41,514 nt of DNA from Candidatus Doudnabacteria bacterium (lineage in GTDB: Bacteria > Patescibacteriota > Doudnabacteria > UBA920 > VMFF01): positions 207,114-248,627 of the forward strand of contig JAQBQP010000001.1 of the NCBI GenBank assembly GCA_028286905.1, given 5' to 3'. The position numbers and the translations under genes were made by a program. The notes below the pieces were generated by a model, which made no database searches, was not told where the DNA came from, and saw nothing but the letters and a program-made list of their open reading frames with translations. Positions 12,366 through 41,398 of the stretch are shown here, in pieces. Numbering within the stretch: the stretch's first letter is position 1; every line of letters begins with the position of its first letter.

Positions 12366-13685
12366 ATGAGTAAAACAAAATGGTATTGGATTGGCGGGGT
12401 GGTAGCGTTGGCATTAATAGTTTTATTTTTTGTAAGTCTTTATAACAGTACAAAAACTCCTACTTCCAGCGTTTCCAGTGCCCCTTTTAAATTAGTAGTT
12501 TGGGGAACTTTTGAAGATACCGAAAATATGGCGCCATTTATTTCTGACTTCGAGCAAAAATATAAAGGGGCTCAAATCGAATATACTCAAAAAAATGCTC
12601 AAGATTATGAAACGGATTTACTAAACGCTTTAGCTGCTGGAACCGGTCCGGATATTTTCGTTATTCATAATGATTGGCTACCAAAATACCAAGACAAGCT
12701 GATTGAAGCACCAAAAGAAGCTTTTACCGTTAAATCTTACAAGGATACCTTTGTAGACGTTGCTTCTGATGATTTCGTAAGCAATGGTAAAGTTTACGCT
12801 GCGCCACTTTCTGTAGACTCCTTAGCGCTCTATTATAATAAAGACATTTTAGGTAGCGCTGGAATTGCTTTGCCTGCCAAAACATGGGACGATTTGAAAC
12901 GCGATGTTAAAAAAATCACCGTTCGCGGTGATGGCTCCTTTATTCCTAAATCAGGAGTAGCCTTAGGAGCTTCGAGTAATATAAATCGCGCCGTAGATAT
13001 CCTGTATTTATTTATGCTTCAAAATAAGGCAGTACCATACACTTCCGACTATACGCAGCCAACCTTTGACCAAGCTGTAACAGACAATTCTGGTAATACG
13101 ACTTTCCCTGCTGCGGATTCCTTAGCTTTTTATGGCTCTTTTTCAAATCCTAGTTCAGATGTGTATAGCTGGAATAATAAATCAAACTATTCTATAGATG
13201 CATTTGTAAATGGGGAACTCGGCTATATGTATGGCTATTCTTATTTAAAAGACACAATAAAACAAAAGGCTCCAAATTTAAATTATGATGTTGCGCCTGT
13301 TCCTCAGCCAAAGAGTGGCCAAAATTTGGTAAATTTGGCAAATTATTACGGATTCGCAGTTTCTAAACAAACTAAATCTCCGAATGGAGCATGGGCATTC
13401 ATTTCCTCGATGACCTCTAAGAAAAGTCTTACTGATTATTACACTAGGCATCCGCTACCCGCCGCCCGCAAGGATATGATTTCTGATCAGATCGACACAG
13501 ATTTAGGAGTTTTTGCTAGCGCTAACCTAACCGCAAAAAGTTTTTACAAAAAAGACGCCACGAAAGTAGATTCAATCATTTCTGATTTAATAGACGATGT
13601 AACTTTGCGCGGCAAGCAAATTGATCAGTCGCTTTCTAATGCCAGTCAAAAAATTGGACAATTGCGATTGAGCGGCGAACAATAA
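12366..13685 (+). CDS. Membrane-anchored extracellular solute-binding protein (family 1)
   Basis: This 439-residue protein resembles sugar-type ABC transporter binding proteins: FKLVVWGTFEDTENMAPFISDF begins the first lobe, followed by ALAAGTGPDIFVIHNDW, the hinge segment APLSVDSLALYYNKDI and GELGYMYGYSYLKD. The N-terminus has one hydrophobic helix (about residues 7-27) with no lipobox cysteine, so it is anchored by an uncleaved helix or is secreted. No ABC permease or ATPase gene lies nearby. The ligand is unknown. It is 46 bases upstream of the pilin array but has its own promoter, as does the array. Confidence 0.85.
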   Translation: MSKTKWYWIGGVVALALIVLFFVSLYNSTKTPTSSVSSAPFKLVVWGTFEDTENMAPFISDFEQKYKGAQIEYTQKNAQDYETDLLNALAAGTGPDIFVIHNDWLPKYQDKLIEAPKEAFTVKSYKDTFVDVASDDFVSNGKVYAAPLSVDSLALYYNKDILGSAGIALPAKTWDDLKRDVKKITVRGDGSFIPKSGVALGASSNINRAVDILYLFMLQNKAVPYTSDYTQPTFDQAVTDNSGNTTFPAADSLAFYGSFSNPSSDVYSWNNKSNYSIDAFVNGELGYMYGYSYLKDTIKQKAPNLNYDVAPVPQPKSGQNLVNLANYYGFAVSKQTKSPNGAWAFISSMTSKKSLTDYYTRHPLPAARKDMISDQIDTDLGVFASANLTAKSFYKKDATKVDSIISDLIDDVTLRGKQIDQSLSNASQKIGQLRLSGEQ

Positions 13686-13705
13686 CTGGAAATTAAGTGC
13701 AATTG

Positions 13706-13714
13706 TGGTATAAT
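13706..13714 (+). promoter_or_regulatory. Extended -10 promoter of the pilin array
   Basis: TGGTATAAT, a perfect extended -10, lies 17 bases before the first pilin-like ATG. Confidence 0.65.
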
Positions 13715-13731: not shown

Positions 13732-14247
13732 ATGAACTCAAAAATAAAAACAACCTTGTGTTTCCTGATGATGGTGCTAAGCTTCTCAACTAGCAGCGTT
13801 TCCTATGCTGCTAGTTTATCTGTTTGTGGAGAATCTAAAACGCCTTCCACTCAAGCGGGTTCCACCCCTTATGATAACTACGATGCCTATTCAAAATGGC
13901 TGATCGCTGAAAAGGGAAAAAATTTATCCGATGATCAATTTGCAAAGGAAGATGCCGCCTATAAAACTGCGAACAATATTTGTCAGGCTAGTGATATTTT
14001 TAGGCAAGTCGCTAGAATTATTAATTACTTAATAGGATTTATTGGAGTGTTCGTTGTCGTAAGGGTTGTAATATCTGGTTTTCAGATGGTTATGTCTCAA
14101 GGGAATGCGGAAAATCTAAAAGTAGCTAAAGATGGGATTAGAAATTCAATCATTGGTTTGGTACTTGTACTCGGAGCTTTTGTTCTAGCAAATATAATTT
14201 TTCAATTGGCCGGCGTCGGTGGTTTTAATCTTAACCCATATCAATAG
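13732..14247 (+). CDS. T4SS_pilin-type protein 1
   Basis: This 171-residue secreted membrane protein has a cleavable-looking signal peptide (to about residue 27, ending SYAAS), a hydrophilic segment with two cysteines (CGESK and NICQAS), and two membrane helices joined by the short loop VMSQGNAENLKVAKDGIRN. The two-helix core with a GN loop is that of VirB2/TrbC-like T4SS pilins. Its exposed segment is longer (about 70 residues) than in its neighbours. It is the first gene of a same-strand array of five; gene 2 starts one base after its stop. Assembly into a pilus is inferred from the family only. Confidence 0.8.
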   Translation: MNSKIKTTLCFLMMVLSFSTSSVSYAASLSVCGESKTPSTQAGSTPYDNYDAYSKWLIAEKGKNLSDDQFAKEDAAYKTANNICQASDIFRQVARIINYLIGFIGVFVVVRVVISGFQMVMSQGNAENLKVAKDGIRNSIIGLVLVLGAFVLANIIFQLAGVGGFNLNPYQ

Positions 14248-14248
14248 C

Positions 14249-14782
14249 ATGAAGAAAATAATTTTAAAATTGTTCATTATAGGGTTGGTTATTGCCCCTG
14301 CCTTTAGTTTGTATGTTGTGAGGGCAGACAGCGGTGTGATATGCGAAGCTCCGGGGCTACCCCCTAATTGCGACCCTTTTGCTCACCCGATCACTCCAAC
14401 TAATACCTCTGCCGCCGCAAATACCCCACCGACAAATACTCCATCTGCAAACTCCACCACAACTAATTCTGCGGCCAGCACGACGACGAGTAGTAACTGT
14501 AAGTTTGATCAGCAATCAACCAAGCTTTGTAACCCTATTCCCGAGAACAATTTGAACGCCGTCATCGTAAAGGTTTTAAAAATTATTTTAGGACTGATTG
14601 GCAGTGTTGCAGTGGTTGTAATAGTTTTGGCTGGATTTAAAATGGTTTATTCTCAAGGTAATTCTGAAGCAATTAAAAGCGCTAGGGAGTCTATCACTTG
14701 GGCAATTGTTGGACTGGTAGTCGCATTGTTGGCTTACACAATCGTTGCAATTATTACCAGTACTTTAACCACCGCTAAATAA
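14249..14782 (+). CDS. T4SS_pilin-type protein 2, with Thr/Ser/Asn-rich exposed segment
   Basis: This protein has 177 residues from the ATG at 14249; an upstream in-frame ATG at 14219 lies inside the previous gene. A signal peptide is followed by a low-complexity Thr/Asn/Ala/Ser segment (about residues 45-80) and four cysteines in two pairs (CEAPGLPPNCD and CKFDQQSTKLC). The two-helix core carries VYSQGNSEAIKSARES between helices. The low-complexity segment resembles a flexible, possibly glycosylated surface stalk, which the other array members lack at that place. Confidence 0.8.
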   Translation: MKKIILKLFIIGLVIAPAFSLYVVRADSGVICEAPGLPPNCDPFAHPITPTNTSAAANTPPTNTPSANSTTTNSAASTTTSSNCKFDQQSTKLCNPIPENNLNAVIVKVLKIILGLIGSVAVVVIVLAGFKMVYSQGNSEAIKSARESITWAIVGLVVALLAYTIVAIITSTLTTAK

Positions 14783-14791
14783 AATAAAAAT

Positions 14792-15670
14792 ATGAAAAAA
14801 ATAATTGCTTCTCTAATATTGTTTGTCCTGGTGCTGGTGCCTAATTTGCATTTTGCCGCTGCTGCTTGTGCCAATGATAATGTTGATCCAGCAGTTTCCG
14901 GTGTTTTTAAAGTTTCTAGTTTTTGTTCAGCTGGGGATTTGATCGCAACAATTATTACAATGTTGTTAGGATTAATTTCATTAATCGCAGTTGTTGTAAT
15001 AATTTTGGGCGGATACAAATATGTTACCTCTCAAGGAAACGCAGAGAATGCGGGGGCTGCAAGAAAACAAATTACCTATGCCGTAGTCGGATTAGTTGTC
15101 GCCGTACTTGCTTACTCAGTCGTAGCGATTGTTAACAATACTATTTTGTCCGCAAGTCCTGCAAGCTCAGGAGCAAGTACCTCGGGAAATACTACGGGAG
15201 GCACACCAGGTGCTTCCACGCCTACGCCTCAGCAACAAGCAGCAATGGCCAGAATTCAGAGCGGTGTAAGTATCGTTGGAAACATTGATCCCGCAAAGCA
15301 AACGGATTCTAACGGAGATTTTATTACAAATAGTTTTGTTGCCACAGCGCATGGCAACATTCAAGATATTTTGATCTCTTCATCTTGTACGAACATCGGA
15401 ACCAGCGGCAGGGTGGATGTAACTTTAAAAATACCTTTATCGGGAGGCGGAACATCGGACGTCACTGGAGAAAGCCCAAACTTTGATATATCTGGCGACA
15501 CTTATAGTTTTACTGCACGTTTTGATAATCAAGGTATTATTCCCAGTCAACCATACGCTGCAAGCGGAGGTCAATTTGATGCTGATGTGAAGCTTACGTT
15601 TGATGGCGGTTGCGAAAGCAATTTTACAGTCACGAGAGACACCTCCACCATTTATAAGAGTGGTAGTTAA
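14792..15670 (+). CDS. T4SS_pilin-type protein 3 with large C-terminal beta domain
   Basis: This 292-residue protein has a signal peptide (cleavage likely near AAA-CAND), two cysteines before the first helix, and the two-helix core with YVTSQGNAENAGAARKQ. After the second helix comes a Ser/Thr/Gly/Pro linker (about residues 122-150), then about 140 residues of probable beta-strand domain with a further cysteine pair (SSCTN and GGCESN). No known domain is recognised in the extension. It is the only array member with one and may be an adhesive tip or minor pilin. Confidence 0.78.
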   Translation: MKKIIASLILFVLVLVPNLHFAAAACANDNVDPAVSGVFKVSSFCSAGDLIATIITMLLGLISLIAVVVIILGGYKYVTSQGNAENAGAARKQITYAVVGLVVAVLAYSVVAIVNNTILSASPASSGASTSGNTTGGTPGASTPTPQQQAAMARIQSGVSIVGNIDPAKQTDSNGDFITNSFVATAHGNIQDILISSSCTNIGTSGRVDVTLKIPLSGGGTSDVTGESPNFDISGDTYSFTARFDNQGIIPSQPYAASGGQFDADVKLTFDGGCESNFTVTRDTSTIYKSGS

Positions 15671-15693
15671 TTCCCAATTACTTATTATTATTG

Positions 15694-15699
15694 TATAAT
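15694..15699 (+). promoter_or_regulatory. -10 box inside the pilin array
   Basis: TATAAT lies in the 55-base gap before pilin 4, suggesting genes 4 and 5 can be transcribed apart from genes 1-3. Confidence 0.5.
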
Positions 15700-15725
15700 T
15701 TACTTAATGGAAGGGGGTGAAGAAT

Positions 15726-16121
15726 TTGAAAAATCTTATCAAGAGAATCGATTTTCTAAAAGTTGCTCAGTACGCATTGTTATTAGTTCTTTTAGTTGCG
15801 CCATTGTATGCAAGCGTAGCTCGTGCTGACATTCCTCAACCTGATTGTCGTCAATTGAATGGTATTAATTGTACCAACAACGTTGATATCACAGGCATTA
15901 TCCTTGTAGTTCTAAGATATGTAATCGGCTTAGCCGGTTTGATCGCTTTGGTCTTCTTAGTGTTCGGCGGTTTCCGCTATATCACTTCAGCTGGTAACGA
16001 AGAGACTGCAGGAAAAGGAAGGAAAACAATCCTTAACGCTTTAATAGGTCTAGCGATTGTTATTTTGTCCTACGTAATCATCTCAGTAGTTTCTAAGACT
16101 ACCTCCACAGTCGTTCAATAA
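15726..16121 (+). CDS. T4SS_pilin-type protein 4
   Basis: This is about 131 residues from a TTG start at 15726. I chose it because AAGGGGGTGA, one base short of a perfect anti-Shine-Dalgarno complement, lies 5 bases upstream; the in-frame GTG at 15717 is part of that ribosome binding site. It has a long signal peptide ending near ARA, a short exposed segment with two cysteines (CRQLNGINC), and two helices flanking YITSAGNEETAGKGRKT. The strong ribosome binding site suggests high expression, as expected of a major pilin. Confidence 0.82.
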   Translation: MKNLIKRIDFLKVAQYALLLVLLVAPLYASVARADIPQPDCRQLNGINCTNNVDITGIILVVLRYVIGLAGLIALVFLVFGGFRYITSAGNEETAGKGRKTILNALIGLAIVILSYVIISVVSKTTSTVVQ

Positions 16122-16160
16122 ACGACAATTTAATTTTTTACAAATAGAGAAGGTGAAAAA

Positions 16161-16583
16161 ATGAAAAAATATATTGTCGCTTTGCAGTTATCCCTGATGC
16201 TTGTGCTTAATGTTTTTATTTTTTCACCTCTAAGTACTCAAGCACAGGGGATTTGTGGTACAGGTAACTCTCTAACACAAGATTCACGCACAAAGTTGTG
16301 TGTGGTACCAGGTGAAACCAGAGGCGCTGCGGACATCATTACCAGAGTCATAAATTATTTGCTGCTTTTTGCAGCTTTGATCGCGATTTTGTTTATTGTC
16401 CTTGGTGGGTATAGGTACATCACTGCTCAGGGTAACGCAGAAAATGCCAAGGCTGGCAGAACCACAGTGGTTAATGCAATTATTGGACTAGCCATAATTA
16501 TATTAGCCTACGTCATTGTTTCCGTGGTTAACAATACCCTCGCTGGTGAGAACACCTTCTGGGGCAGAGTACTTGGTCCGTAA
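16161..16583 (+). CDS. T4SS_pilin-type protein 5
   Basis: This 140-residue protein is preceded by GAAGGTGA six bases before its ATG. It has a signal peptide ending near TQA, an exposed segment with two cysteines (GICGTG and KLCVVPG), and two helices flanking YITAQGNAENAKAGRTT. Its C-terminus runs 14 residues past the second helix (ENTFWGRVLGP). It is the last gene of the array and is followed by a strong terminator. It is most similar to pilin 4 around the loop. Confidence 0.82.
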   Translation: MKKYIVALQLSLMLVLNVFIFSPLSTQAQGICGTGNSLTQDSRTKLCVVPGETRGAADIITRVINYLLLFAALIAILFIVLGGYRYITAQGNAENAKAGRTTVVNAIIGLAIIILAYVIVSVVNNTLAGENTFWGRVLGP

Positions 16584-16599
16584 TTTTGAATTTTATAGA

Positions 16600-16633
16600 A
16601 ATACCTTCGAATAAATTCGGGGGTATTTTTTTA
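16600..16633 (+). terminator. Terminator of the pilin array
   Basis: An 11-pair stem (ATACCTTCGAA with TTCGGGGGTAT, including two G-U pairs) with loop TAAA is followed by seven T. Confidence 0.85.
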
Positions 16634-16672: not shown

Positions 16673-16757
16673 GCCGGCGTGGCGGAATTGGTATACGCGC
16701 CAGTCTTAGGAACTGGTTCCTTACGGATTAAGAGTTCGAGTCTCTTCGCCGGCACCA
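16673..16757 (+). tRNA. tRNA-Leu (anticodon TAG)
   Basis: A class II tRNA has acceptor arms GCCGGCG/CGCCGGC, anticodon loop CTTAGGA reading TAG, a long variable arm, T arm with GTTCGAGTC, and encoded CCA. An extended -10-like TGTTAATAT lies just upstream. A DedA start codon follows 16 bases after the CCA. Confidence 0.95.
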
Positions 16758-39713: not shown

Positions 39714-39936
39714 TACATTCTCGCAAGAGAGTGTATGTCTGCCTTTCCCAAGGCAGACGAATATCCAATGAGATTTAATTTGCTTAAATGCAAAAATAGT
39801 TTGTATGTTTTCTAACTACGGTGTAAAAAACATACGCCAGAAAATGTTATTTGAGTTCCTGCGAATGACCAACTCGGTCGACTGCATACTTGATAATACT
39901 TCTACCTTATCATTCGCTTTGAGTGTGTGATAAGTT

Positions 39937-41398
<1,462 letters not shown>

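Follow-up and report, generated by a model that had tools for sequence, protein, structure and literature searches.

What do five tandem pilin-like genes with different exposed parts build on the cell surface, and does the gene in front of them take part? This question is raised by the array at positions 13732 to 16583 of the window, that is, the whole stretch of 41,514 nucleotides that was analysed (G000:C2:207114-248627), from a genome of 881,275 bases in three contigs that is 97% complete. Judged by the gene in front of the array, which encodes a solute-binding protein (SBP), the nearest named relatives are labelled Candidatus Doudnabacteria, and the source organism is a tiny, probably host-dependent Patescibacterium. 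We propose, with a probability of about 0.5, that the five proteins form a mixed VirB2-like pilus of a type IV secretion system (T4SS) and that the SBP is its tethered glycan-binding receptor rather than an importer subunit. The genes concerned, with lengths in amino acids (aa) and bit scores for the T4SS_pilin family PF18895, are the following.

12366 to 13685, + strand: SBP_bac_1 (MalE-like) solute-binding protein, 439 aa; membrane-anchored at the N-terminus, no lipobox Cys; PF01547, 1.1e-32.
13732 to 14247, + strand: pilin 1, 171 aa; exposed segment of ~70 residues before the core; 27 bits; colinear orthologues in relatives.
14249 to 14782, + strand: pilin 2, 177 aa; stalk rich in Thr/Ser/Pro ahead of the core; 39.6 bits; colinear orthologues.
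14792 to 15670, + strand: pilin 3, 292 aa; core, linker and then a C-terminal region of ~130 residues (exposed C-terminal part, ~175 residues); 34.4 bits.
15717 to 16121, + strand: pilin 4, 134 aa; minimal form; start at GTG 15717 or TTG 15726; 37.8 bits.
16161 to 16583, + strand: pilin 5, 140 aa; minimal form; 35.1 bits; colinear orthologues.

All five consecutive open reading frames of the array exceed the curated PF18895 cut-off of 26.6 bits, which excludes a chance match. A first reading made from the letters alone (the original prediction) had described five T4SS_pilin-type genes with one shared core and five different exposed parts, and this description holds in each of its elements: every protein has a signal sequence, as judged by eye, at least two cysteines before the first helix, and a turn motif of the pattern [SA]xGNxE (SQGNAE, SQGNSE, SQGNAE, SAGNEE and AQGNAE in pilins 1 to 5), and the exposed parts differ as listed above. 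The cysteines between the signal sequence and helix 1 are C32/C84, C32/C41/C84/C94, C26/C45, C44/C52 and C32/C47, respectively. The turn motif and the cysteine pair are common traits of the family, as the exact motif occurs in 150 of 218 pilins from the window and the arrays fetched from relatives, and 144 of the same 218 have two or more cysteines ahead of helix 1. A two-helix hairpin pattern is common to all five proteins in the alignment. The single structure predicted, the AlphaFold2 model of pilin 3, places the helices at residues 47-79 and 84-119, joined by a turn that contains the motif; the blocks within helices reach predicted local confidence scores (pLDDT) of ~71-79, the overall value is 51.8, and the C-terminal part, which contains two Cys and is probably beta-rich, is modelled unreliably. 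Foldseek returned no match to this model at E <= 0.001, owing to its poor C-terminal part, and a search of the PDB sequences with the pilin profile gave nothing useful. For pilin 2, the list of open reading frames gives a start at GTG 14219, from which the PF18895 score was computed, and ATG 14249 yields a normal signal sequence. Type IV pilins of the PilA type were rejected upon inspection, as the class III signal with its GFTLIE-like cleavage motif and a single N-terminal helix is absent from all five proteins.

The comparison with relatives draws on 40 fetched arrays. Full-length scores pair the five genes one to one, and in order, with those of the four family-level relatives. Across the remaining families of the order, the concordance of best core matches with the window's gene order averages 0.57, compared with 0.00 (standard deviation 0.08) when the order is shuffled, and none of 2000 shuffles reaches 0.57. 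The positions in the array are thus old colinear paralogues that keep orthologous places across related genomes, not recent copies. Relatives also encode chains in which two, three or four pilin domains stand in tandem, often at array position 2 (L049, L056, L106, L112, L129, L130 and others).

The original prediction had further suggested one major and several specialised subunits. This suggestion gains support from the conserved order and from the properties of pilin 4 and of the outer parts, and the pilus that it presupposes would still be a deduction from the family. In families of the order other than the window's own, the median core score is highest for pilin 4 (74.5 bits), followed by pilins 5, 3, 2 and 1 (68.0, 53.9, 49.8 and 43.1 bits). 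Across 36 arrays, the gap before the pilin-4-like gene has a median of 91.5 bases compared with 8 for the other internal members (P 6e-8). A perfect TATAAT within 90 bases upstream accompanies 18 of 36 pilin-4-like genes and 14 of 126 others (Fisher P 2e-6), a contrast that is weakened because the leader is non-coding and probably AT-rich, so that base composition may contribute. The corresponding signals in the window are as follows.

13687 to 13714, + strand: promoter-like site with a perfect TATAAT before pilin 1; 10/12 matches; weak evidence.
15671 to 15699, + strand: promoter-like site with a perfect TATAAT before pilin 4; weak alone; relatives likewise have a separate leader before their pilin-4-like genes.
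16597 to 16630, + strand: terminator-like hairpin with a T run at the end of the array, before the tRNA-Leu at 16673-16757.

Across the whole scan, promoter-like sites showed no enrichment over shuffles; only the position of such a site was used, jointly with the leader statistics of the relatives. Being minimal, best conserved and separately led, pilin 4 fits what is expected of a major pilin, and we regard it as probably being that subunit.

The same hairpin proteins might instead form a T4SS channel that spans the membrane or envelope, with no extended pilus and with the longer members serving as lids or linkers. Monoderm T4SSs generally lack pili, according to passages of PMC10633639 and PMC12102498; many relatives encode chains with two to four pilin domains, and some proteins of ~1000-1600 aa carry a pilin domain. 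However, several distinct subunits, of which one is separately led and best conserved, fit a filament with a main subunit, and a pilus on a monoderm T4SS has been regarded as an intriguing possibility in a review (PMC12857230); we consider a channel of this kind unlikely.

The outer parts change faster than the core. In the close pair L041/L044, the core of pilin 3 is 89% identical and its C-terminal part 55%. At the window's distance from its relatives, a sequence search did not detect the C-terminal part of pilin 3, and queries with the outer parts of pilins 1-3 had hardly any matches beyond the closest genomes.

The SBP gene, which ends 46 bases upstream of pilin 1 and is the only SBP_bac_1 gene of the genome, was left out of the original prediction, and the comparison places it with the array. 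In 33 of the 40 fetched arrays, the pilins follow it directly. In five of the seven exceptions (L043, L048, L054, L066 and L073), the array breaks at a contig end and the SBP lies near the end of another contig; of the remaining two, L068 has an SBP apart from its pilins and the L079 genome has none. In a set of 80 SBP-led loci from named genomes, the pilins lie directly downstream of the SBP on the same strand in 73; of the remaining seven loci, three break off at most 160 bases from the SBP. This set spans Doudnabacteria, Moranbacteria, Uhrbacteria, Yanofskybacteria, Portnoybacteria, Andersenbacteria, Terrybacteria, Colwellbacteria, one Microgenomates bacterium and others. In an even sample of 145 genomes across the phylum, the SBP is present in 114, nearly always once, and among 60 phylum-wide SBP loci from other orders, in most cases a single one per family, the pilins follow directly in 38, often with 0-20 bases between the genes. 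Adjacency is found in 18 of 19 of these loci above 400 bits and in 20 of 41 below. This genomic evidence indicates that the SBP gene belongs with the pilin array. Two further arrangements, with the neighbours identified by eye, were noticed around SBP genes. In many relatives, although not in the window, the gene immediately upstream encodes a GalU-like nucleotidyltransferase (L045:631-1539, L075:2514-3386, L059:1868-2773 and others). In some lineages in which the SBP is not adjacent to pilins (L266, L276 and L297), its gene is arranged head to head with that of a large membrane-anchored protein similar to VanW/peptidoglycan-binding proteins.

The recurrence of this junction across the phylum also bears on the idea that the array is a store of variant pilins, generated by repeated duplication for antigenic or host-range variation as proposed for the VirB2 copies of Bartonella and Anaplasma, with the SBP being a mere neighbour. 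Such versatility has been proposed for Patescibacteria, as the suggestion of host adaptation by analogy with these two genera in passages of PMC12102498 indicates, and it is true that the outer parts change fast and that copy number differs between arrays. However, the orthologous positions are kept across genera and families, and pilins 2-5 are only ~24-27% identical to pilin 1 over their length, so that there was no recent duplication within the window's array; together with the recurring SBP junction, these observations make a variant store a distinctly unlikely explanation.

Is the SBP then part of an ATP-binding cassette (ABC) importer? Among 60 relatives examined for SBP and permease genes, 54 have exactly one SBP_bac_1 gene, and no BPD_transp_1 permease was found in 40, including 29 of the 42 relatives that are at least 90% complete. 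The window's own genome encodes a single such permease, TauC/SsuC-like in appearance and situated beside its own ATPase, and thus no cognate BPD_transp_1 permease pair encoded with the SBP. In most genomes, the SBP seems to be without an importer partner. The protein itself appears intact: the AlphaFold2 model (pLDDT 91.3) shows the complete two-lobed SBP fold, the best structural matches in the PDB are oligosaccharide-binding proteins (E 1.6e-24), and W46, W104, D151, W269, Y291, Y327 and W343 are invariant in 21 SBP sequences from many lineages. D151 aligns with a residue of E. coli MBP that we take, in numbering and role, to be Glu111. These invariant aromatic and acidic residues suggest that a ligand site is in use, which is compatible with sugar binding. 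That the SBP is an ordinary importer subunit placed beside the array by chance, served by a permease that belongs to another family or was overlooked in the assemblies, would suit its family and fold, the 22 of 60 phylum-wide loci in which it is not beside pilins and the BPD_transp_1 permease present in one third of the relatives, but is improbable given the permease-free majority, the TauC/SsuC-like look of the genome's own permease with its separate ATPase, the same close SBP-pilin junction in many families and the absence of any importer operon seen by eye around 17 non-adjacent SBPs.

The original prediction had pointed out that no secretion ATPase lies in the window. This is correct for the window and does not describe the genome, which encodes VirB4 and a VirD4-like ATPase elsewhere. 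VirB4 is located on contig C3 and is seen as two adjacent genes, an N-terminal part recognised by eye without a Pfam match and a P-loop part (L008:11717-14263). Its cluster, which follows recG and radA, contains genes for PrgI (2.9e-6) and VirB6/TrbL (2.8e-6) as well; the VirD4-like protein, of 836 aa, is encoded on contig C1. The T4SS of this genome is of the monoderm type. Passages of PMC12102498 give the recG/radA neighbourhood for T4SS loci of class ABY1, and the C3 cluster as proof of that class was dropped, as the nearest named genomes are Doudnabacteria. In genes beside recG (L008:2078-5897), type IV prepilin-like N-termini (GFTLIE) suggest a separate type IV pilus system. A complete 16S rRNA gene lies at 39936-41397 of the window, close to the contig end.

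We return to the mixed pilus with a tethered receptor. The pilins would be exported, probably by Sec, and held in the membrane as two-helix hairpins, each of them probably closed by a disulfide between its cysteine pair. VirB4 would lift these hairpins into a mixed surface filament whose shaft would consist mostly of pilin 4, and pilins 1-3, with their fast-changing outer parts, would be present as a few tip, spacer or contact subunits, possibly used in attachment to a host. The membrane-tethered SBP may bind a glycan or oligosaccharide at the base of the filament or at the cell surface, and may pass the ligand to the T4SS or signal host contact rather than feed an ABC importer. Several points weigh against this proposal. 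The division into major and minor pilins is predicted from sequence, and both the filament and ligand binding by the SBP are what we infer. The 22 phylum-wide loci with the SBP apart from pilins are mostly lower-scoring, and some pilin-bearing genomes (G049, G052 and G057) have no SBP. The array is situated on C2 and virB4 on C3, so that the pilins are not near virB4; passages of PMC12102498 give such proximity for 1135 of 1948 assemblies, which shows that it is common and not required. As a tentative extension, the SBP may have evolved into a dedicated component of the Patescibacterial T4SS pilus: as a tethered receptor for glycans, it would recognise host surfaces or capture sugars of the host and pass them into the T4SS. 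In the literature searched, no T4SS with a component of this kind came up; if the extension is true, the T4SS acts partly as a sensing or feeding device.

The genome contains one more pilin, which stands alone on C1 (L010:8491-9693; ~330490-331692). This protein of 400 aa runs into a C39-like peptidase domain (2.6e-12), and its gene adjoins that of an M23 peptidase. Its counterparts in relatives carry an SLT transglycosylase domain (2.7e-12) or an M15_4 D-Ala-D-Ala carboxypeptidase domain (2e-17), as in the fusion loci L200:1420-2505, L202:916-1911 and others, and further counterparts have C-terminal regions without a Pfam match or end after the pilin domain. Most VirB2-bearing genomes lack VirB1, as stated in passages of PMC12102498; the pilin-enzyme fusions could supply the VirB1 function and are a possible answer to this reported lack. 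Very long frames (~1580-1600 aa) containing a T4SS pilin domain were also observed (L171:5233-9975 and G038:C5:17884-18090).

The array itself is known in kind, as tandem VirB2-like arrays have been published for Patescibacteria: passages of PMC12102498 (2025) report 441 arrays of 2-11 VirB2-like pilins in 383 assemblies, with a mean identity of 25%, and the window adds a further example. In host-attached Paceibacteria, T4SS pilins are listed as highly expressed, with other secreted proteins whose function is unknown (PMC10936435), and in S. epibionticum the pilins and the T4SS are essential, according to passages of PMC10633639. Three findings are new here: subunits kept in a conserved order, of which one is probably the major pilin; an SBP partner that is widespread and orphan; and fusions of pilins with enzymes. 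The order, together with the separate leader of one member, offers a testable assignment of major and minor pilins. To our knowledge, the T4SS of Patescibacteria is essential in one species tested, yet it has no known substrate or receptor. A widespread, single-copy, pilin-linked sugar-binding protein is a concrete candidate receptor for glycan testing, and its presence beside pilins in much of the phylum suggests an unreported part of a surface device that is possibly used on hosts. The literature searched held no paper tying a solute-binding protein to these pilins; supplementary tables lay outside this search, so an unremarked listing is possible.

Among known systems, the arrays of Ca. Southlakia epibionticum ML1 and Ca. 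Nanosynbacter lyticus TM7x, as described in passages of PMC12102498 and PMC10633639, likewise consist of tandem divergent PF18895 pilins with a monoderm-type T4SS that lacks the classical conjugation set; unlike these, the window's array is far from virB4 and directly behind an SBP. The main text of these two papers does not mention an SBP partner, and their passages on the arrays do not report a colinear positional orthology or a separate leader of one member. The conjugative pilins of the VirB2/TrbC family (PF04956) are also small secreted proteins with two hydrophobic helices and a short loop, but none of the five passes the cut-off of that model, the lone listed match being pilin 5 with 13.7 bits compared with a cut-off of 27.9 (E 0.075). 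All five match the Mbov_0395 family of pilin-like conjugal transfer proteins from the integrative and conjugative elements of mycoplasmas (NF045849; E 2e-9 to 6e-5), although all remain below the 40-bit cut-off of the model and the setting in the window is not such an element. The SBP resembles the MalE-type SBPs of ABC importers (PF01547) in family, predicted fold and conserved aromatic and acidic residues, and differs from them in that a candidate cognate permease is absent in most genomes and the linkage is to pilins instead. In the bindosome of Sulfolobus, sugar-binding proteins with type IV pilin-like signal peptides are assembled by a pilin-like system with its own assembly genes. The window's pilins are VirB2-like and its SBP has its own membrane anchor; the pilin part is not homologous, and the analogy is functional, namely the association of sugar-binding proteins with a pilin-type surface system.

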